From Martelella limonii (GTDB lineage: Bacteria; Pseudomonadota; Alphaproteobacteria; Rhizobiales; Rhizobiaceae), in the NCBI RefSeq assembly GCF_013344475.1, contig NZ_JABUOU010000001.1, positions 744,001-808,000 on the forward strand: a DNA stretch of 64,000 bases, given 5' to 3'. Every line of letters begins with the position of its first letter. Within the stretch, counting starts at the first letter, position 1. Shown one piece after another: positions 341 to 8,970 of this stretch. Both the position numbers and the translations under genes were made by a program. The notes beneath the pieces are model-generated. The model ran no database searches. It saw nothing but the letters and a program-made list of their open reading frames with translations, and had not been told where the DNA came from.

Positions 341-634
341 TTGCTGCGAGATCGCGCATTGACCCAACCTGTCCTGACCCAGAAATTCACGATGCACGGC
401 CGTTTCGCCGGAGAGAGCTTTCTGCCCTGGATGGAGCGGCATGCCGGAAAACTCGGGCTGGAGAATGAAATCCTGACGGCGACGGAAACCCGAATCGAAC
501 TGGCACTGCAGGGACCGCAGGCCTTGATCGATGCCATGGAAATGGCCTGCTCTCTCGGTCCGATCGATATCTGGGTGGAGGAGATCGAAAGCGTGCCGCT
601 CAACGAAATGCCGTCGACGCCTGCGCAGCCCTGA
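341..634 (+). CDS. Acylphosphatase-like small protein, catalytic residues apparently lost
   Basis: A 97-codon frame whose residues 14-85 follow the acylphosphatase fold: a first strand (KFTMHGRF), the G-x-x-F turn, a helix with W-M-E-R-H-A-x-K-L-G-L, a strand ending in a Gly, then a second helix and a GP-x-x-x-x-V-x-x-I strand. In active acylphosphatases the phosphate loop reads G-R-V-Q-G-V-x-F-R. Here the final Arg is Leu, and the usual Asn of the following strand is not recognisable, so hydrolytic activity is doubtful. The start is uncertain: TTG at 341, TTG at 359 or ATG at 392, and the last would cut the first strand. No strong ribosome site is visible. It could be a non-catalytic relative or a decaying gene. 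Confidence 0.5.
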   Translation: MLRDRALTQPVLTQKFTMHGRFAGESFLPWMERHAGKLGLENEILTATETRIELALQGPQALIDAMEMACSLGPIDIWVEEIESVPLNEMPSTPAQP

Positions 635-813: not shown

Positions 814-1446
814 ATGCAATTCCATAAAGAGTGGACGCCAGCGGCCCTTTCCGCAGATTTGTCGGCGGCCACTGCAATGCCGGTGAGGAGCGCTGAAGGC
901 GATCTCGCATTGTGGCGGAGCGCGTCCAGTCGGCTCACCGCTTCTGATGACCGATGTCCGCATCGCGGCATGCGGCTCTCTCACGGGTTCGTCCGGGGAG
1001 AGGCGCTTTCCTGCATCTATCACGGATGGCGCTACGGAAACGACGGACAATGTCTGGCGATCCCCGCGCATCCGGACCTCGAACCGCCGAAGACCATCAG
1101 GGTGGAGACCTATCCGGTGGTCGAACAGGACGGCGTGATCTGGATCGGGCGCCGCGGCGCTACCGGCAGTCCGCCCCGGCTTGAAGGCAAGTCTCCCGTT
1201 CGGACGATCAGCATTCAGGCCACCATCGAAGCGATCGAAGCGGCTGCGGGCGTGAAGGCCAATGCCGAGGGTCTGCTGCACATGACAGCGCTCAACGCGC
1301 TGATCGGTCACTGCGAAAACGGTGAGACCGTCGTGCATGTGCTTGTTGAGGCAGATGCAGACGGCGCTTCGCGGATCGCCGCATCGCGCGCAGCGGAGGC
1401 GCTGCGGCGCAATGCCGAAACCGGTCTCATGAAGGGAGCCGCGTGA
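814..1446 (+). CDS. Stand-alone Rieske [2Fe-2S] protein, electron carrier of a split oxygenase
   Basis: A 210-residue protein with a complete Rieske centre: C48-P-H50-R-G, then C67-I-Y-H70-G-W, 16 residues between the two halves, as in oxygenase-type Rieske domains. Residues 1-115 form the domain and end in the usual E-x-Y-P-V-x-E-x-x-G-x-I-W strand. Residues 125-210 are a tail that I do not recognise. There is no catalytic iron domain and no reductase domain. The stop codon overlaps the start of the next gene (TGATG), and that gene encodes an oxygenase catalytic domain without a cluster, so the two very probably work together. This resembles NdmC/NdmD purine N-demethylases, where the Rieske centre for NdmC sits on another polypeptide. 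The partner assignment is inference; the Rieske call is firm. Confidence 0.92.
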   Translation: MQFHKEWTPAALSADLSAATAMPVRSAEGDLALWRSASSRLTASDDRCPHRGMRLSHGFVRGEALSCIYHGWRYGNDGQCLAIPAHPDLEPPKTIRVETYPVVEQDGVIWIGRRGATGSPPRLEGKSPVRTISIQATIEAIEAAAGVKANAEGLLHMTALNALIGHCENGETVVHVLVEADADGASRIAASRAAEALRRNAETGLMKGAA

Positions 1447-2279
1447 TGAACCCGATGCGTGACGAATGGTATCCCGTGGCGCTCTTCAACGGGCTCGATC
1501 GACGCGAGACCATGCTGATGGACGAGCCAATCACCGTTACCCGTGATGGCGCGGAAACAGTCAGCGTCACCACCAATGATGGCCGCGCTTTGCCCGTCCA
1601 GATCCGCTACGGCCATGTCTGGACATCGCTCGGCGCGCCTGAAAAGGACGTCTTCGCCATCCCCGAGGCTGATGATCCGGATCGACGGCTGGTTGATGTC
1701 GGCGTTGTAAGGGTACGCTGTTCGCCGCTCAGGGCGGTCGAGAACTTCCTCGATATCGCGCATTTTCCCTTCGTCCACACCGATATTCTCGGTGCGGAAC
1801 CGCATACCGAAGTGCAGAACTACAAGGTGGAAATCCGCGAGGATGCCGATGAGGTCTGGGCGACCCAGGTGAAATTCTATCAGCCTCAGGCCGCGAAGTC
1901 GGCAAGCGGCGGCATCGACACCGATTACATGTACCGCGTTCCCGCGCCCACCTGTTCCGTGCTCTACAAGTCGAGCCCGCCGCGTCCCGGCGAATGGGAT
2001 GTGATCGCGCTCTTCGTGCAGCCGCTGTCCGAGGAGATCTGCGACGTCTGGCCCTGGATGGCGCTTTTCGACGATCAGTCGTCGATGACCGACCTCATCC
2101 AGTTCCAGCAGATGATTTTCCTGCAGGACCGCTCGATCCTGGAAAATCAGCTTCCCGCCCGCCTTCCGCTTGATCCCGGCAAGGAAATTCCGACCCGCGC
2201 CGACATGACCTCGATCGCCTACAGGCGGTGGCTGAAGCGTCACAACTATACCTATGGCGCGCAATTGGTAGCGCAATGA
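1446..2279 (+). CDS. Rieske-type oxygenase catalytic subunit lacking its own cluster (NdmC-like)
   Basis: A 277-residue protein of the VanA/Ndm type of Rieske non-haem iron oxygenases. The mononuclear iron motif is present: E99-N-F-x-D103-x-x-H106-x-x-x-x-H111, with D228 in FLQDRSILENQ a likely third ligand. D103 fits the bridging Asp that normally links iron and Rieske cluster. The N-terminus (W-Y-P-V-A-L, then T-V-T-R-D-G and G-H-V-W-T-S-L-G) still follows the framework of a Rieske domain, but both cluster loops (CPHRG and CxxHGW) are missing. The cluster must come from a partner, most simply the upstream Rieske protein. N- or O-demethylation or hydroxylation of a purine or pterin is inferred from the operon. 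I start at ATG 1446, one base overlapping the previous stop; a GTG at 1443 is possible. Confidence 0.85.
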   Translation: MNPMRDEWYPVALFNGLDRRETMLMDEPITVTRDGAETVSVTTNDGRALPVQIRYGHVWTSLGAPEKDVFAIPEADDPDRRLVDVGVVRVRCSPLRAVENFLDIAHFPFVHTDILGAEPHTEVQNYKVEIREDADEVWATQVKFYQPQAAKSASGGIDTDYMYRVPAPTCSVLYKSSPPRPGEWDVIALFVQPLSEEICDVWPWMALFDDQSSMTDLIQFQQMIFLQDRSILENQLPARLPLDPGKEIPTRADMTSIAYRRWLKRHNYTYGAQLVAQ

Positions 2280-2938
2280 AACTCTACGACTACATTCTCT
2301 CACCAAGCTGCTACAAGGTCCGCCTGATGGCCGCCCTTGCAGGCGTGCCGCTCGACCTCAAGGCAGTGGATTTTCATCCGGGCCGCGAGCATCGCCAGCC
2401 ACAAATGCTGGCGCTCAACCCGGCAGGGACCCTGCCGATCCTCGAAGATGGCGACCTTCTGCTGACGGAATCCTCCGCCATGCTCGCCTATATCGCGGCG
2501 GGTGCTGCGCCCGATTGGCTGCCGCGCGAAGGCGATGCCACTGAAGCTGCCCGGGTGCAGCAGTGGCTGTCTTTCTCGCCCCGCCTCACCGTGCATCTCG
2601 GCGGCGCACGGCTTTACCGCATGCTGAATGTCGATGGCGATATTGATCGCATGACGGCCGGCGGGATCGCCGCCCTGCGGGAGCTGGAACTGGGCCTTTT
2701 CGAGCAGCGCGAACGCGGCATGGCCTTTCTTGCCGCGGACCGTCCGACCATCGCCGATATTGCCTGCTTTCCTTATGTCGCGCTTGCGCCCGACGGGAAC
2801 ATAGCGCTTGACCCTTATCCCAACATCCGCCGCTGGATGCGTGCGCTGCGCGCCCTCGACGCCTTCATCGAAATGCCGGGCATTCACCGCCTGCACGAAT
2901 TGAAGCCGGATCCGCACCAGAAAGCAGAGGAGGCCTGA
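2276..2938 (+). CDS. Glutathione S-transferase-like protein (NdmE-like partner?)
   Basis: A 220-residue GST-fold protein. The N-terminal thioredoxin-like half has the strand M-K-L-Y-D-Y, S10/C12 in the catalytic-loop region, the cis-proline P54 in A-G-T-L-P-I-L, and the glutathione-binding T64-E65-S66-S67. The helical C-terminal half includes the conserved T-I-A-D-I-A-C-F motif. The ATG start overlaps the oxygenase stop (ATGA), so the two are translationally coupled. GSTs next to ring-cleavage genes often handle glutathione adducts. Next to a cluster-less Rieske oxygenase, however, the known parallel is NdmE, a GST-like protein of the NdmCDE N7-demethylase thought to hold the complex together. 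Which role applies is not decided by sequence. Confidence 0.88.
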   Translation: MKLYDYILSPSCYKVRLMAALAGVPLDLKAVDFHPGREHRQPQMLALNPAGTLPILEDGDLLLTESSAMLAYIAAGAAPDWLPREGDATEAARVQQWLSFSPRLTVHLGGARLYRMLNVDGDIDRMTAGGIAALRELELGLFEQRERGMAFLAADRPTIADIACFPYVALAPDGNIALDPYPNIRRWMRALRALDAFIEMPGIHRLHELKPDPHQKAEEA

Positions 2939-2939
2939 A

Positions 2940-4319
2940 ATGGCTGGTTATCTTCTGAAAAACTGCGCGGCTGTGGTTGTCGACGAGGGCGATGGTCCGG
3001 CAGTCCGGCGTAATGTCGACCTCCTGACCGATGGACCGGCCGTGAAGGCCATCGGAACTGATCTCGGCGCGCACGGCATGCCCGCCGGTGTTACCGCGAT
3101 CGACGCCGATGGCTGGTTCGTCTATCCGGGGCTGATCAACACGCACCACCATTTTTTCCAGTGCTTCGTGCGTAATCGCGCTGATCTCGACTGGACCAAA
3201 CTTGCTGTGATCGAATGGCTTGACCGGATCTATCCCGTGTTTGCGCGACTGGATGAGGAAAGCTTCTATCACTCCTCCGTCACCGCCATGGCCGAGCTGA
3301 TCAAGCATGGCTGCACCACCGCCTTCGATCACCAGTATAACTTCCCGCGCCATGCCGGAAAACGTCTGATCGACAGGCAGTTCGAGGCCGCCGATCTGCT
3401 CGGCATGCGGTTTCATGCCGGCCGTGGCGGCAACAGCCTGCCGAAATCCGAAGGCTCCACCATTCCCGACGAGATGCTGGAGACGACGGACGCCTTCATC
3501 GGCGATTGCGAACGTCTGATCGACGCCTATCATGACAGCGCGCCCTTCAGCATGCGTCAGGTGGTCGTGTCGCCCTGCCAGCCTGTCAACAGCTACCGCG
3601 AAACCTTCGTCGAATCGGTGCGCCTTGCCCGCGACCGCGGCGTTTTCCTTCATACCCATGTGGGCGAAGGCGAAAGCGAGGTCATGAGGGCCCGTCACGG
3701 CCTGCGCACGGTGGACTATCTGGAAGAGATGGGTTTTGCCGGTCCCGATACCTTCTATGCCCATTGCTGGGAACTCACGCGCGATGAGCTTGCGACGATG
3801 GCGGCAAGCGGCACAGGCGTTTCTCACTGCCCGGAACCGGTCTATCTGGTCGGTGAACAGGTCACCGATATTCCGGCGATGGACGCGCTCGGCCTGCGCA
3901 TCGGGCTCGGCTGCGACGGCGCTGCGTCCAACGACAATTCCAACCTGATGCACTGCCTGCATTCTGCCTACATGCTGCAATGCCTGGTGTCTTCGACGCG
4001 CGCCGATCCCGTGCCGCCCCCTGCCGATTTCCTGGCGTACGCGACGACCGGCGGCGCGAGCCTGCTTGGCCGCAAGGATATCGGTCGGCTCGCGCCCGGC
4101 ATGGCCGCCGACCTCTTCGTGATCGATAGCCGCCGGATGGACTATGTCGGCACGCGCCATGATCCGCTCAGCCTGATCCCCCGTGTCGGCATCGGCATGG
4201 CAACGGACATGACGATGATCAATGGCAGGATCGTCTGGCAGGACGGCGCATTCGCCGGGCTCGACGAACGAAAGCTCTTTGCGGATGCCGAACAGGCGCT
4301 CGCCCGAATTGAAATGTGA
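2940..4319 (+). CDS. Amidohydrolase of the 8-oxoguanine deaminase family
   Basis: A 459-residue metal-dependent deaminase of the COG0402 type. Visible metal and catalytic residues: H69-H70-H71 in N-T-H-H-H-F-F-Q, H238-T-H240, E243 and E245 in V-G-E-G-E, H275, H296 and D326 in D-G-A-A-S-N-D. The N-T-H-H-H-F and D-G-A-A-S-N-D wording is characteristic of the 8-oxoguanine/isoxanthopterin/hydroxyatrazine branch, and the V-G-E-G-E segment differs from the more usual L-A-E. The expected reaction is hydrolytic removal of an exocyclic amino group from a purine or pterin ring. A purine-type transporter follows, and an oxygenase and GST precede. The ribosome site is good (AGAGGAGG). The exact substrate is not readable from sequence. 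Confidence 0.88.
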   Translation: MAGYLLKNCAAVVVDEGDGPAVRRNVDLLTDGPAVKAIGTDLGAHGMPAGVTAIDADGWFVYPGLINTHHHFFQCFVRNRADLDWTKLAVIEWLDRIYPVFARLDEESFYHSSVTAMAELIKHGCTTAFDHQYNFPRHAGKRLIDRQFEAADLLGMRFHAGRGGNSLPKSEGSTIPDEMLETTDAFIGDCERLIDAYHDSAPFSMRQVVVSPCQPVNSYRETFVESVRLARDRGVFLHTHVGEGESEVMRARHGLRTVDYLEEMGFAGPDTFYAHCWELTRDELATMAASGTGVSHCPEPVYLVGEQVTDIPAMDALGLRIGLGCDGAASNDNSNLMHCLHSAYMLQCLVSSTRADPVPPPADFLAYATTGGASLLGRKDIGRLAPGMAADLFVIDSRRMDYVGTRHDPLSLIPRVGIGMATDMTMINGRIVWQDGAFAGLDERKLFADAEQALARIEM

Positions 4320-4346: not shown

Positions 4347-5441
4347 ATGACGAAGATTACACGCAGAACCTTGATCCAGGCCGCAGCTGCCACTGGCCTT
4401 GCCGGTGCCATGGGCGCCCGCGCCTTTGCAGCCGACGAACCGCTCGGCATCACGCTCGTCGTACCCTCCCCGATCGGCGACGTGGGCTGGGGCCACGCGC
4501 TTTCAGCCGGTCTCGAGCCGGTGAAGGAGGCCTATGGCGACAAGGTCAAGGTGACGGTGCTCGAGAACATTGCCGAGGGCCCGGATGCCGACCGGATCAT
4601 GAACAAGGCGGTGGCCGACGGGAACAACTTCCTCATCGCCGGTTCCTTCGGATACCAGAACGGCGCCTTCCAGATCGCCCGCCGCAACCCGAAGGTCAGC
4701 GTGCTGCACGCGTCGGGCTACATGGTCGCGCCGAACTTCTCGCCGTTTGCCGCGAAATATTTCCAGGGCACCTACCTGCTCGGCATGGCCGCTGCCGCCG
4801 TTTCTAAAACCGGCAAGCTGGGCTCGGTTTCGGCCTTTGCCATTCCGGAGCTCATCACCTCGATCAACGCCTTCACGCTCGGCGCACAGGCCGTCAATCC
4901 GGATGTGGAAGTCTCGGTCGTCTGGGTCAACTCCTGGTTCGATCCGGCTCAGGAACAGGATGCCGCCAAGGCGCTGATCGCCAAGGGCTGCGACGTGATC
5001 TTCTCCAACGCCCAGGATACGCCTTCGGTGATCTCGGCCTGCGAGGAGGCCGGCGTTTACGCCTTCAACCTCAACTCCTCGATGAAGAGCTATGCGCCGA
5101 AGATGTATCTCGGCTGCGTCGCCACCGACTGGTCGCCCTATTTCCTGTCGCAGGTCGAGGCTCACATGAACGGAACTTTCAAGGGCGCCAATGCCTTCCT
5201 CGGCATGGCTGACAAGGTGGTTGAAGTTGTTGACGTCAGCAGCGATATCCCCGCCGACGTCATGACAACGATCACCGAGACGGAAGCCAAGATCGCCGAT
5301 GGCAGTTTCTCGCCCTTCACCGGTCCGATCATGAAGGCCGATGACAGCGAAGGCGTGGCGGCGGGCAAGACCATGACCGACGAGGAGATCGTCGCCATGG
5401 ACTGGCATGTGAAGGGCGTCACCACGCCGCTGCCGCAATAA
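4347..5441 (+). CDS. BMP-family substrate-binding lipoprotein-like protein (purine/nucleoside ABC importer)
   Basis: A 364-residue periplasmic binding protein of the BMP (basic membrane protein/PnrA, Med) family. It starts with a twin-arginine-like leader (R6-R7-T-L) and a hydrophobic stretch ending A-R-A-F-A-A-D near residue 28. The mature part opens G-I-T-L-V-V-P-S-P-I-G-D-V-G-W-G, and A-S-G-Y, F-Q-G-T-Y-L-L-G-M-A-A and W-F-D-P-A-Q-E are typical of BMP proteins, which bind nucleosides and purine-like molecules. There is no lipobox cysteine, so it is probably a soluble periplasmic protein. It is followed at 12 bp by its ATPase and two permeases, making a complete importer. Confidence 0.93.
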   Translation: MTKITRRTLIQAAAATGLAGAMGARAFAADEPLGITLVVPSPIGDVGWGHALSAGLEPVKEAYGDKVKVTVLENIAEGPDADRIMNKAVADGNNFLIAGSFGYQNGAFQIARRNPKVSVLHASGYMVAPNFSPFAAKYFQGTYLLGMAAAAVSKTGKLGSVSAFAIPELITSINAFTLGAQAVNPDVEVSVVWVNSWFDPAQEQDAAKALIAKGCDVIFSNAQDTPSVISACEEAGVYAFNLNSSMKSYAPKMYLGCVATDWSPYFLSQVEAHMNGTFKGANAFLGMADKVVEVVDVSSDIPADVMTTITETEAKIADGSFSPFTGPIMKADDSEGVAAGKTMTDEEIVAMDWHVKGVTTPLPQ

Positions 5442-5453
5442 GGCGCGGGGAGA

Positions 5454-6965
5454 ATGGAGACACCGCTCCTTTCGCTTTCCGGTATCTCGAAAAGCTACGG
5501 TCAGGTCCGCGCCAATCAGGACATAGACCTTTCCGTCGCGCCGCGCTCGATCCACGCGATCCTGGGCGAAAATGGAGCCGGAAAGTCCACGCTGATGAAG
5601 CTGATCTATGGCGTCGAGCAGCCTGATGAGGGCAGCATGGCGTGGAACGGTCAGCCGATCACGCTTGCCTCGCCGGCGGTCGCCCGCCGGCAGGGCATCG
5701 GTATGGTGTTTCAGCATTTCTCCCTGTTCGAGACGCTGACGGTCGTCGAGAACATCCAGCTGGTCATGTCCGGCACCAAGAGCGCGCTTGCCGAACGCAT
5801 GCGCGCCCTCGGCCAGGAATTCGGTCTGGAGGTTGACCCCTTCGCCCATGTCCACGCGCTCTCGGTCGGCGAGCGGCAGCGGGTCGAGATCATCCGCTGC
5901 CTGATGACGGATCCGAAGCTGCTCATTCTCGATGAGCCGACCTCAGTGCTACCGCCGCAGGCGGTCACGCGTCTCTTCGAAACGCTTCGGAGGCTGCGCG
6001 ACGGCGGCGTGTCTATCCTGCTGATCTCGCACAAGCTGGAGGAAATCCAGGCGATCTGCGACCGCGCCACGATCCTGCGCGCCGGTCGCGTGACCGGCCA
6101 TCTCGATCCCCGCGATCATGACGAGCACACGCTGGCGCGCATGATGATCGGCCGCGACATTCCAGAGCCCGTTCCTGCCGAACCCGTGGATGAGGGTGAC
6201 AAGCAGCTCGAGCTGATCGGCCTCGACTATGCGCCCGAAGACCCGTTTGGGGTCTCCCTTGAACGGATCACGCTGTCGGTGCGCGGCGGTGAAATTCTCG
6301 GCATCGCCGGCATTTCCGGCAATGGCCAGGCAGAGCTTGCCGCCCTGATTTCCGGCGAGACCAGGCTCAAGACGCCGGACCGGATCTTCATGATGGGACA
6401 GGATGTCGGCCAGATGAGCGTCTCAGCCCGCCGAAGGCTCGGCTTCGCCTTTGTCCCGGAAGAGCGGCTTGGCCGCGGTGCGGTGCCCGAACTGTCGCTC
6501 TCGCTCAACGGCATTCTGACGGCCCACCGGCACGGTCTTGTCCGGAAGGGCATGATCAACCGCAAGAGCGCAGAAGGTTTTGCCCGCGCCTGCATCGCGG
6601 AATACGACGTCCGCACCCCCGGCCCCGAGGCCGAGGCTGGCGCGCTGTCGGGCGGCAACCTGCAGAAATTCATCGTCGGGCGCGAGATCATGCTTCACCC
6701 AAAGCTGCTGTTCGTCGCCCAGCCCACCTGGGGCGTCGATATCGGCGCGGCGACCGCGATCCGCCAGCGCCTCATCGAACTCAGAAATGCCGGCATGGCG
6801 ATCCTCGTCATCTCGGAGGAGCTGGAAGAGCTGTTCCAGCTGACGGACCATATCCAGGTGCTGCACCATGGAAGGCTGAGCCCGCCGCTGGTGACGCGTG
6901 ATACCAGACCGGAAGATGTCGGCCGTTACATGATCGGCTCGGAAACAGGAAAACGCGCGTCATGA
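5454..6965 (+). CDS. ABC importer ATPase with two nucleotide-binding domains (BMP type)
   Basis: A 503-residue tandem ATPase of the YufO/NupO class. The first domain has a normal Walker A (G-E-N-G-A-G-K-S-T, about 40-48), a signature-like L-S-V-G-E-R-Q-R-V-E and Walker B L-L-I-L-D-E-P-T. The second domain has the degenerate Walker A (G-I-S-G-N-G-Q-A-E-L), signature L-S-G-G-N-L-Q-K, and A-Q-P-T-W-G in place of a canonical Walker B; this asymmetry is normal for the family. It energises the permeases encoded next, overlapping the first by 4 bp. The start ATG follows a GCGGGGAGA ribosome site. Confidence 0.95.
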   Translation: METPLLSLSGISKSYGQVRANQDIDLSVAPRSIHAILGENGAGKSTLMKLIYGVEQPDEGSMAWNGQPITLASPAVARRQGIGMVFQHFSLFETLTVVENIQLVMSGTKSALAERMRALGQEFGLEVDPFAHVHALSVGERQRVEIIRCLMTDPKLLILDEPTSVLPPQAVTRLFETLRRLRDGGVSILLISHKLEEIQAICDRATILRAGRVTGHLDPRDHDEHTLARMMIGRDIPEPVPAEPVDEGDKQLELIGLDYAPEDPFGVSLERITLSVRGGEILGIAGISGNGQAELAALISGETRLKTPDRIFMMGQDVGQMSVSARRRLGFAFVPEERLGRGAVPELSLSLNGILTAHRHGLVRKGMINRKSAEGFARACIAEYDVRTPGPEAEAGALSGGNLQKFIVGREIMLHPKLLFVAQPTWGVDIGAATAIRQRLIELRNAGMAILVISEELEELFQLTDHIQVLHHGRLSPPLVTRDTRPEDVGRYMIGSETGKRAS

Positions 6966-8062
6966 GTGCTCCGGCCCTTTCCTTTCTGCCAAGCCTCGTG
7001 CGTCGCGAACAGGCATCGCTGAAGGCGACGCTGCTTGCCCCGCCGCTGGCACTTCTTGCCGCGATCGTGCTCAACCTCGGCCTATACGTGGTGATGGGCC
7101 GCGATCCGGGCGCGGTCGTCTACGCGATGCTGCTCGAACCCTTCATCTCCTGGACTTCGTTTTCCGAAGTGCTCCTCAAGACCGGGCCGCTTCTGCTGAT
7201 TGCGCAGGGGCTCGCAATCGGTTTCCGGGCGAAGGTGTTCAACATCGGCGCGGAAGGTCAGTTCATTCTCGGTGCGATCTTCGCCTCGTCGATCCCGGTC
7301 TGGTTTCCAATGGCGACGGGGTTCTGGATCTGGCCGTTGATGCTTGTTCTGGGCGCCATCGGCGGCGCTCTCTGGGCTTCCATCACGGCCTTCTGGCGTG
7401 CAAGGCTCAACGCCAACGAGATCCTGGTCTCGCTGATGCTGAGCCTCGTCGCGCTTCAGCTACTCTATTACCTGTTGCTGGGCCCGTGGAAGGATCCGAA
7501 CGGCTTCAACTTCCCGCAATCGGTGATGTTCCAGTACGACGCCATGGTGCCGACCTTGATCCCCGGTACACGGGTCAACATTTCGCTTCTGCTGGCGCTC
7601 GCTTTTTCGGCTGCAGCCTTCGTGTTCATGCAGAAAAGCTTCATGGGCTACAAGCTTCAGGTGGGCGGCCTTGCGCCAAAGGCGGCGGGCTATGCCGGAT
7701 TCTCGGAAAAGAGCGCCATCTGGCTGTCGTTGCTGATCGGGGGCTTTGCGGCGGGACTTGCAGGGGCAGCGGAGGTGGCCGGCCCCATCGGCCAGCTCCA
7801 GCGCTCGATCGCCACCGGATACGGCTATGCTGCCATCATCGTCGCCTATCTCGGCGGCCTTCACCCGATCGGCATCATCTTTTCTTCGCTGTTCATGGCA
7901 GCGCTCTATATCGGCGGCGACAACGCCATGGTGTCTGCCAACCTGCCGGTAGCGGCCGTTCGGGTGTTTCAGGGCAGCCTGCTGCTCTCCTATCTGGTCG
8001 CCGTAGCCTTCGTGCGCTACCGGCTGGAATGGCCGGCCAACCATCGACGGAGGGCGGCATGA
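6962..8062 (+). CDS. ABC importer permease, first subunit (BMP/nucleoside type)
   Basis: A 366-residue polytopic protein of the branched-chain/ribose permease superfamily as found with BMP importers (YufP/NupP-like). About nine to ten hydrophobic segments are visible. The conserved coupling-loop region reads F-R-A-K-V-F-N-I-G-A-E-G-Q, followed by A-R-L-N-A-N-E-I-L-V-S-L-M. It pairs with the next gene, with which it overlaps (ATGA), and with the tandem ATPase. Its predicted cargo is a purine base, nucleoside or methylated purine, inferred from the binding-protein family and the deaminase in the same operon. Confidence 0.94.
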   Translation: MSAPALSFLPSLVRREQASLKATLLAPPLALLAAIVLNLGLYVVMGRDPGAVVYAMLLEPFISWTSFSEVLLKTGPLLLIAQGLAIGFRAKVFNIGAEGQFILGAIFASSIPVWFPMATGFWIWPLMLVLGAIGGALWASITAFWRARLNANEILVSLMLSLVALQLLYYLLLGPWKDPNGFNFPQSVMFQYDAMVPTLIPGTRVNISLLLALAFSAAAFVFMQKSFMGYKLQVGGLAPKAAGYAGFSEKSAIWLSLLIGGFAAGLAGAAEVAGPIGQLQRSIATGYGYAAIIVAYLGGLHPIGIIFSSLFMAALYIGGDNAMVSANLPVAAVRVFQGSLLLSYLVAVAFVRYRLEWPANHRRRAA

Positions 8063-8970
8063 GCGCGATCGAATTCATCATTGCCGGCATGCTCGCAGCC
8101 GCAACGCCGTTCCTGCTCGCGGCCCTCGGCGAACTGGTCGCGGAACGTTCCGGCGTTCTCAACCTCGGTCTTGAAGGCCTGATGGCGCTTGGCGCCGTGA
8201 TTGCCTTCATCGTCGTCTATCACAGCGGGAGCCACCTGATCGGCTTTCTGGCAGCGGGTGTCGTCAGCGCGCTGCTGTCGCTCATCTTTGCCTTCGTCAT
8301 TCTGGGCTTCAGGGCCAATCAGGTGGCAACCGGCCTTGCCATCGGCATTCTCGGCCAGGGTCTTTCCGCTCTGTTCGGCAAGACCTATGAAAGCCTGACG
8401 ATCAAGGGCCTTCCCAAGATCGCAATACCCGGCTTGTCCGAGCTTCCGGTTGTGGGCGGGCTGTTCAGCCAGGATATCGTCGTGTGGCTGTCGCTGCTGG
8501 CAACGCTTGGCGTCTGGTACATGCTGAACCGCACAAAGACGGGCCTGATCGTGCGCGCGGTCGGCGAAAACCCGAAGGCGGCGCATGCGATCGGCTTTCC
8601 GGTGATTGCGGTGCGGGTCGCGACGATCGCCTTCGGCGGCGCGATGGCAGGCTTTGCCGGCGCCTATGCCTCGACCATCTACACGCCGCTGTGGGCCGAC
8701 GGCATGATCGCCGGTCGCGGCTGGATCGCAATCGCCCTTGTGGTTTTCGGAACGTGGCTGACGGGTCGTGTCTTCCTCGGCGCCTGCATGTTCGGCCTCG
8801 TCTCGCTGATGAGCCTTGCGGCGCAGGCCGAAGGCGTCGGGCTCCCCTCGCAGCTGCTCTCCGCCCTGCCCTATATCGTGACCATCATCGTGCTCGGCAT
8901 CATCTCCGCCGACCGGCGCCTGCTGAAACTCAACGGCATTGCATCGCTTGGCGAGCCGTTCGAGCGGTAG
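8059..8970 (+). CDS. ABC importer permease, second subunit (BMP/nucleoside type)
   Basis: A 303-residue permease of the YufQ/NupQ type. The N-terminal A-T-P-F-L-L-A-A-L-G-E-L-V-A-E-R-S-G-V-L-N-L-G-L-E-G and the F-R-A-N-Q-V-A-T-G-L-A-I-G segment are hallmarks. The start chosen is the ATG at 8059, which overlaps the previous stop (ATGA); a longer frame exists upstream, but its extra residues read out of frame through the preceding permease. It is the last gene of the operon that begins with the Rieske protein. It completes an importer for purine-like compounds. Confidence 0.94.
   Translation: MSAIEFIIAGMLAAATPFLLAALGELVAERSGVLNLGLEGLMALGAVIAFIVVYHSGSHLIGFLAAGVVSALLSLIFAFVILGFRANQVATGLAIGILGQGLSALFGKTYESLTIKGLPKIAIPGLSELPVVGGLFSQDIVVWLSLLATLGVWYMLNRTKTGLIVRAVGENPKAAHAIGFPVIAVRVATIAFGGAMAGFAGAYASTIYTPLWADGMIAGRGWIAIALVVFGTWLTGRVFLGACMFGLVSLMSLAAQAEGVGLPSQLLSALPYIVTIIVLGIISADRRLLKLNGIASLGEPFER

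Follow-up and report, generated by a model that had tools for sequence, protein, structure and literature searches.

The first 9 kb of a 64,000-nucleotide stretch of the Martelella limonii genome (contig NZ_JABUOU010000001.1, positions 744,001 to 808,000 of the forward strand; here called the window) carries an operon that we think likely imports methylated guanines and converts them to xanthine. In this reading, which we favor with fair though not full confidence, the operon encodes an N-demethylase of the NdmC family, a Rieske oxygenase divided between two polypeptides, and the amidohydrolase encoded beside it is an NdmH, a hydrolase of N2,N2-dimethylguanine. The genes, in window coordinates, are as follows.

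359..634, + strand: acylphosphatase-like protein, 91 amino acids (PF00708, 19.8 bits versus a cut-off of 22.5)
814..1446, + strand: free Rieske protein, 210 amino acids (PF00355, 1.1e-19)
1446..2279, + strand: catalytic subunit, NdmC type (VanA_C PF19112, 7.1e-22; no Rieske family match)
2276..2938, + strand: glutathione S-transferase (GST)-fold protein, NdmE-like (PF02798, PF13410)
2940..4319, + strand: amidohydrolase, predicted NdmH type (PF01979, 2.5e-51)
4347..5441, + strand: BMP-family substrate-binding protein of an importer (PF02608, 3.9e-45)
5454..6965, + strand: importer ABC ATPase (PF00005, 5.1e-46)
6962..8062, + strand: importer permease 1 (PF02653, 1.8e-35)
8059..8970, + strand: importer permease 2 (PF02653, 8.1e-34)

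A first-pass annotation, made from the sequence, had described the Rieske, catalytic, GST, and deaminase genes as translationally coupled and followed by a BMP-type importer, and the layout bears this out. The Rieske TGA (1444-1446) overlaps the catalytic-subunit ATG at 1446 (a GTG at 1443 is an alternative start), the stop of the catalytic gene overlaps the GST ATG at 2276, and the amidohydrolase ATG lies at 2940; genes for the BMP protein, ABC ATPase, and two permeases continue the same run up to 8970. The annotation had overlooked the acylphosphatase-like gene at 359-634, whose TTG start we picked by aligning relatives; the PF00708 scan used a fragment starting at 374.

The amidohydrolase had been taken for an 8-oxoguanine-deaminase-family enzyme. 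Its best NCBIfam model is that of 8-oxoguanine deaminase (PRK08203), but the score of 368.4 bits lies under the cut-off of 532; the guanine deaminase model TIGR02967 gave 121 bits (cut-off, 375.4). NdmH enzymes, reported in 2026, hydrolyze N2,N2-dimethylguanine with a kcat/KM of about 1e5-1e6, 150- to 3600-fold above that for guanine, and the main text of the report names 13 active-site residues of poNdmH, the Pleomorphomonas oryzae enzyme (PMC13054789); Haliea and Rhodobacteraceae have such enzymes too. The window protein has 13 of the 13: the CQNN motif (C213, Q214, N217, and N165 by poNdmH numbers) and Q74, W85, W93, Y98, Y133, E243, H275, P300, and D326, as compared with the published residue numbers rather than with the poNdmH sequence. 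We therefore rejected its identification as an 8-oxoguanine deaminase, given the score below cut-off together with the NdmH residue pattern, and predict that it is of the NdmH type. All 13 residues recur in 79 of 80 aligned rows (the window and 79 related loci, which carry L numbers here); the other row, L048, lacks four of them, and its frame is without the N-terminal part. This frame (L048:11809-12834) comes from a draft assembly and reflects either decay or a sequencing error.

In sampled genomes, the NdmH pattern was found in 5 of 15 matching deaminases of an order-level sample, each of the five beside a catalytic gene, and in a class-level sample (32 genomes matched, 30 loci looked at) only at the window's own locus; absence counts weakly in these searches, which scored the best four or six candidates per genome. 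An 8-oxoguanine-deaminase-like pattern was shown by 37 of 46 rows. As a control, we compared the positions at which AtzB differs: AtzB has I/S/S/I at four of the NdmH positions (PMC13054789, main text), and exactly these four read I/S/S/I in L246, a protein encoded on a Pseudomonas plasmid that shares 57% identity with the window amidohydrolase. We infer that L246 (4941-6386), whose plasmid has an IS1071 transposase gene nearby, is AtzB, which would fit descent of AtzB from the family of the window deaminase. A different relative (L247; 48% identical), from a plasmid of Pusillibacter faecalis (gut Clostridia), has 12 of the 13 residues. Its gene lies beside a BMP/ABC importer, deoD (purine-nucleoside phosphorylase), and mtnA (L247:1277-8380), and no oxygenase is annotated in that stretch; such a set would fit oxygen-free use of N2,N2-dimethylguanosine.

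The two metal sites of the oxygenase lie on separate proteins. The Rieske protein holds the [2Fe-2S] ligands (C48, H50, C67, and H70); the catalytic subunit holds the iron ligands (H106, H111, and D228, plus N100 and D103) and no cluster, with D103 corresponding in the alignment columns to the invariant Asp of N100-x-x-D103-x-x-H106-x4-H111. The first-pass annotation had correctly seen the Rieske carrier as its own gene, but it does not appear to be a plain carrier: in a fold search, its predicted model superposed on whole one-chain oxygenases over residues 1-210. We therefore rejected a plain ferredoxin and predict an entire Rieske-oxygenase fold whose catalytic domain is shrunken and iron-less. 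To judge by their motifs, the two proteins appear to be mirror images, each without the metal site of the other.

Kinship of the catalytic subunit to NdmC, also proposed earlier, was upheld by phylogeny: Rieske-less catalytic proteins form one clade (63 rows; support, 100/99) separate from full-length oxygenases, which led us to reject a local deletion of the Rieske domain. Homologs with an intact Rieske domain had been named as evidence that would tell against the annotation; the cluster motif was found in 0 of 54 NdmC-type proteins examined. The corresponding 9 of 10 in the outgroup is partly by construction, since 8 rows were chosen for having both motifs. The window subunit is 46% identical to a Pseudomonas putida protein (L084), itself labeled NdmC from gene order. 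Two loci with a free Rieske protein (L157 and L158) nonetheless group with NdmD-type loci in the tree, which means that fusion of Rieske protein and reductase, or their splitting, occurred more than once. Other divisions of the parts are seen elsewhere: a Variovorax locus (L089:8265-11412) has a free Rieske protein, a catalytic subunit fused to a reductase, a GST, and a BMP gene, and on pSymA of Sinorhizobium meliloti (L086:8968-13228) two NdmC-type catalytic genes in tandem stand with a single NdmD-type protein and a single GST, next to a BMP/ABC importer and xanthine-dehydrogenase-type genes.

Scanning genome contigs with the catalytic protein yielded 109 relatives, from which we kept 80 loci (77-87% identical), 79 of them labeled as Rhizobium, Mesorhizobium, Ensifer, Shinella, Martelella, and similar genera. 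The Rieske, catalytic, GST, and deaminase genes occur together in 79 of the 80, a co-conservation on which the first-pass annotation had staked its reading, and 76 loci have the acylphosphatase-like and BMP genes as well. Two of the exceptions are without a detected acylphosphatase-like gene, and L004, at a contig end, is without BMP. Gene order passed an automatic test in 76 loci; L013, L069, and L081 failed only through the use of start positions to compare stop-to-stop frames; by their stops, the order is the same. Relative to the nearest relative, L002, dN/dS was 0.24 for the acylphosphatase-like gene, 0.23 for the Rieske gene, 0.075 for the catalytic gene, 0.14 for the GST gene, and 0.08 for the deaminase gene, with dS of 0.87-1.39 across the five; within the Rieske protein, the C-terminal residues 116-210 are under weaker constraint (dN, 0.54; dS, 1.06). 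The operon lies on pRL10 in Rhizobium johnstonii 3841 (RL_RS29065-RL_RS29105; deaminase ortholog, WP_011654363.1), behind a LysR gene, and on an Agrobacterium plasmid. The rows include many close relatives and some pairs from a single genome (L085/L086, L153/L156, and L176/L182). Judged from these sequences, the association of the genes is beyond chance, and the operon is an old and widespread feature of rhizobia.

The GST-fold protein is 37-39% identical to GSTs of ndmCD-type loci, in line with the relationship to NdmE suggested earlier. The acylphosphatase-like protein is a putative partner specific to this system. The window protein misses the PF00708 gathering score, and 24 of 33 family members match at an E value of 0.01 or better. 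Homologs occur in 78 of the 80 related loci. When a profile of these 33 was run against 249 order-level genomes, 25 places scored strongly (≥68 bits), and 24 lie within 10 kb of a catalytic gene, although the profile was built from members beside catalytic genes and so favors such places; the 25th lies in a genome (G752) that carries its catalytic gene on a different contig. In the next tier (≤54 bits), 0 of 17 were near a catalytic gene, among the places entered from genomes bearing one. We also compared 46 diverse loci (47 were supplied; L191, outside the NdmC-type clade, was dropped, and L182 is without a Rieske gene nearby). Here the gene accompanies 18 of 25 free-Rieske loci versus 0 of 16 NdmD-type loci, a distribution that may reflect one or a few gains. 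The most conserved stretch of the family is D-x-x-E/M-x-x-C-S-L-G-P, and neither of what we take to be the catalytic residues of acylphosphatase, an Arg and an Asn, stands out in our alignment (A6), in which no canonical acylphosphatase is aligned.

Gene neighborhoods tie the oxygenase to guanine. Free-Rieske oxygenases occur with a guanine deaminase in L168, L170, L171, and L185 (414 and 413 bits for L170 and L171; cut-off, 375) and with an 8-oxoguanine-type deaminase in L088, L160, L178, L183, and L187 (605 and 579 bits for L088 and L160; cut-off, 532). Because relatives pair the oxygenase with deaminases of these types, methylated guanine is the likely substrate class. Of the 25 free-Rieske loci, 10 have a guanine-type deaminase no more than 10 kb away, versus 1 of 16 NdmD-type loci (Fisher p, 0.028); the rows are partly related, so neither this value nor that for the acylphosphatase-like gene is an independent test. 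Association with guanine may predate the splitting of the oxygenase: at L191 (9311-17800), a BMP/ABC importer and a guanine-deaminase-like gene accompany a Rieske oxygenase that is full-length and falls outside the NdmC-type clade. AdhC-type (formaldehyde) genes, which 5 of the 46 loci (L083, L162, L165, L166, and L167) have no more than 10 kb from their catalytic gene, fit release of formaldehyde by the oxygenase.

Some neighborhoods are broader. Rhizobium sp. BG6 (L088:784-18273) carries these oxygenase genes within a bigger cluster that also encodes three amidohydrolases (one of 8-oxoguanine type, one of ammeline/5'-deoxyadenosine-deaminase type, and a guanine deaminase) and has hydantoinase-like and racemase-like genes, both named by eye; perhaps this cluster is a broader methylpurine pathway. 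A second type of catalytic gene (L160, L178, L182, L183, and L187) forms its own clade and occurs with an amidohydrolase related to N-ethylammeline/5'-deoxyadenosine deaminases, and in some loci with xanthine-dehydrogenase-type genes; it might serve methylated adenine.

The M. limonii genome also encodes enzymes that could use the products. One contig (C37) encodes members of the guanine deaminase (565.5 bits, TIGR02967), xanthine dehydrogenase, urate oxidase, and allantoicase families; since this guanine deaminase is separate, the operon hydrolase would be an extra, specialized one. An AdhC above cut-off and a PF11927 protein are encoded elsewhere.

From the gene set and motifs we propose a pathway whose substrates, step order, complex, and partner roles are inferred. 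The BMP/ABC transporter would bring in methylated guanine bases. The NdmH-type amidohydrolase would convert N2,N2-dimethylguanine to xanthine and dimethylamine, and the oxygenase would take off a ring N-methyl group as formaldehyde, most likely at N7, yielding guanine from 7-methylguanine or N2,N2-dimethylguanine, for NdmH, from N2,N2,7-trimethylguanine; the cell's separate purine pathway would finish xanthine. A ring methyl group, probably that at N7, is favored because removal of an N2-methyl group would be redundant with NdmH and because NdmCDE acts at N7. The two enzymes may act in series (on trimethylguanine) or in parallel (on several bases); the sequence is compatible with either. Within the complex, the Rieske cluster would face D103 and the iron of the catalytic subunit, as in neighboring subunits of ordinary Rieske oxygenases, the GST-fold protein would serve as the scaffold, a role already suggested for NdmE, and a further partner would be the acylphosphatase-like protein.

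Several observations weigh against this pathway. NdmH needs no oxygenase for N2,N2-dimethylguanine (PMC13054789, main text), and the oxygenase could therefore work alongside it on a different base; the probable N7 position comes from kinship. The operon genes of the window include no reductase. The host genome has two homologs of the NdmD-type reductase (31% and 28% identical), both closest to a glycine betaine reductase model and under its cut-off; one of them adjoins a GbcA-like oxygenase. (Among the 46 diverse loci, L166, L180, and L190 have a separate reductase near the catalytic gene.) The best NCBIfam match of the BMP protein, a putative B6 transporter, scores 89 bits versus a cut-off of 400, so far under it that the importer does not fix the imported compound. 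L042 is without a deaminase and BMP beside its window-type catalytic gene, and L126, from the order-level sample, is a second case of a window-type catalytic gene without an adjoining deaminase. The AlphaFold2 (AF2) model of the catalytic subunit is poor (pLDDT, 52.7), and fold-search rows derived from it were left out of the evidence.

We weighed other functions for the operon. The oxygenase could instead strip an N2-methyl group, turning N2-methyl- or N2,N2-dimethylguanine into guanine, with NdmH as an alternative route for the same base. The substrate class would be the same, and in loci where a guanine deaminase replaces NdmH that enzyme would convert the resulting guanine; we nonetheless regard this as unlikely, as the oxygenase would be redundant with NdmH though 79 of 80 loci retain the two side by side, and ring nitrogens are where the characterized NdmA, NdmB, and NdmCDE act (PMC4408171, available text). 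An ordinary NdmCDE-type demethylase of methylxanthine (7-methylxanthine), its hydrolase being incidental or meant for another base, would suit the NdmC-type clade and the GST partner. Guanine-acting hydrolases beside the oxygenase in several branches, a Rieske protein unfused to a reductase, and an operon with no NdmA/NdmB-type gene make it quite improbable.

Breakdown of an oxidized guanine (8-oxoguanine) or a pterin had been put forward in the first-pass annotation, along with methylated guanine. The link to a modified guanine stands; we found no evidence for a pterin. The amidohydrolase does share a broad cluster with 8-oxoguanine deaminase, with PRK08203 as its best NCBIfam model, but it reaches 368 of 532 bits and has the NdmH residues, not those seen in proteins scoring above that cut-off, and PDB 2paj, which we take to be an isoxanthopterin deaminase, matches at 184 bits, more weakly than 7ww2 at 294 bits. 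We give these substrates very little credence. Hardly any is due to a triazine-type xenobiotic pathway, to which the 57% identity of the hydrolase to the AtzB-pattern protein L246 might point: CQNN, not the SSII of AtzB, is found in the window protein and in 79 of the 80 rows, and the operon is old and widespread in rhizobia.

The methylguanine pathway preferred here would have parallels in several known systems. NdmCDE of P. putida CBB5 is an N7-demethylase complex that likewise has a catalytic subunit without a Rieske cluster, a Rieske domain on another protein, and a GST-like partner (PMC4408171, available text). Its NdmD, however, fuses the Rieske domain to a reductase, whereas in the window a separate gene encodes the Rieske protein and a reductase is neither fused to it nor adjoining, and the window adds the acylphosphatase-like gene, the NdmH-type hydrolase, and the BMP/ABC importer. 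The amidohydrolase resembles 8-oxoguanine deaminase (PRK08203) in its fold family and catalytic E, H, and D positions but has N, C, Q, and N at 165/213/214/217 in place of M, C, S, and S. One-chain Rieske oxygenases (dicamba monooxygenase, NdmA, and SxtT) superpose on the whole length of the free Rieske protein and share both metal motifs with the system, which differs in dividing the sites between two polypeptides.

Upstream of the operon, on the opposite strand, lies a dihydrofolate reductase gene (PF00186). Rfam at gathering level gave no riboswitch or other match within the window; in the related locus L002, it placed the small RNA (sRNA) Atu_C8 (RF02502) at 1618-1739.

Searches of open-licence PMC papers found none on the free-Rieske form, the acylphosphatase-like partner, or an operon setting for NdmH, and nothing relevant on methylguanine with a Rieske protein, deaminase, or demethylase, which agrees with the earlier statement that no described system with this gene set was known. 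The main text of the NdmH report never uses "operon," "Rieske," "transporter," or "genome neighborhood," and says that the physiological context is still being investigated (PMC13054789); relative to that text, the operon setting is new.

N2,N2-dimethylguanine occurs in tRNA and N2,N2,7-trimethylguanine in RNA caps. The cluster, which many root-associated bacteria share, probably serves to import and degrade methylated guanine, a base freed by RNA decay. More tentatively, the operon could be the first catabolic route for hypermethylated guanine (for example, cap N2,N2,7-trimethylguanine, or 7-methylguanine plus N2,N2-dimethylguanine of tRNA), in which a two-polypeptide oxygenase, each half without the other's metal site and dependent on GST-fold and acylphosphatase-like partners, takes off the ring methyl group and NdmH releases dimethylamine, and the natural setting of AtzB's parent family. 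The operon would give NdmH a genomic and physiological setting, reveals a small conserved partner protein, and exposes an extreme division of labor among Rieske oxygenases, in which cluster and iron each sit on a separate degenerate copy of the same fold. It suggests a natural function for the family behind AtzB-type herbicide enzymes and marks methylguanine derived from RNA turnover as a likely rhizobial nutrient.

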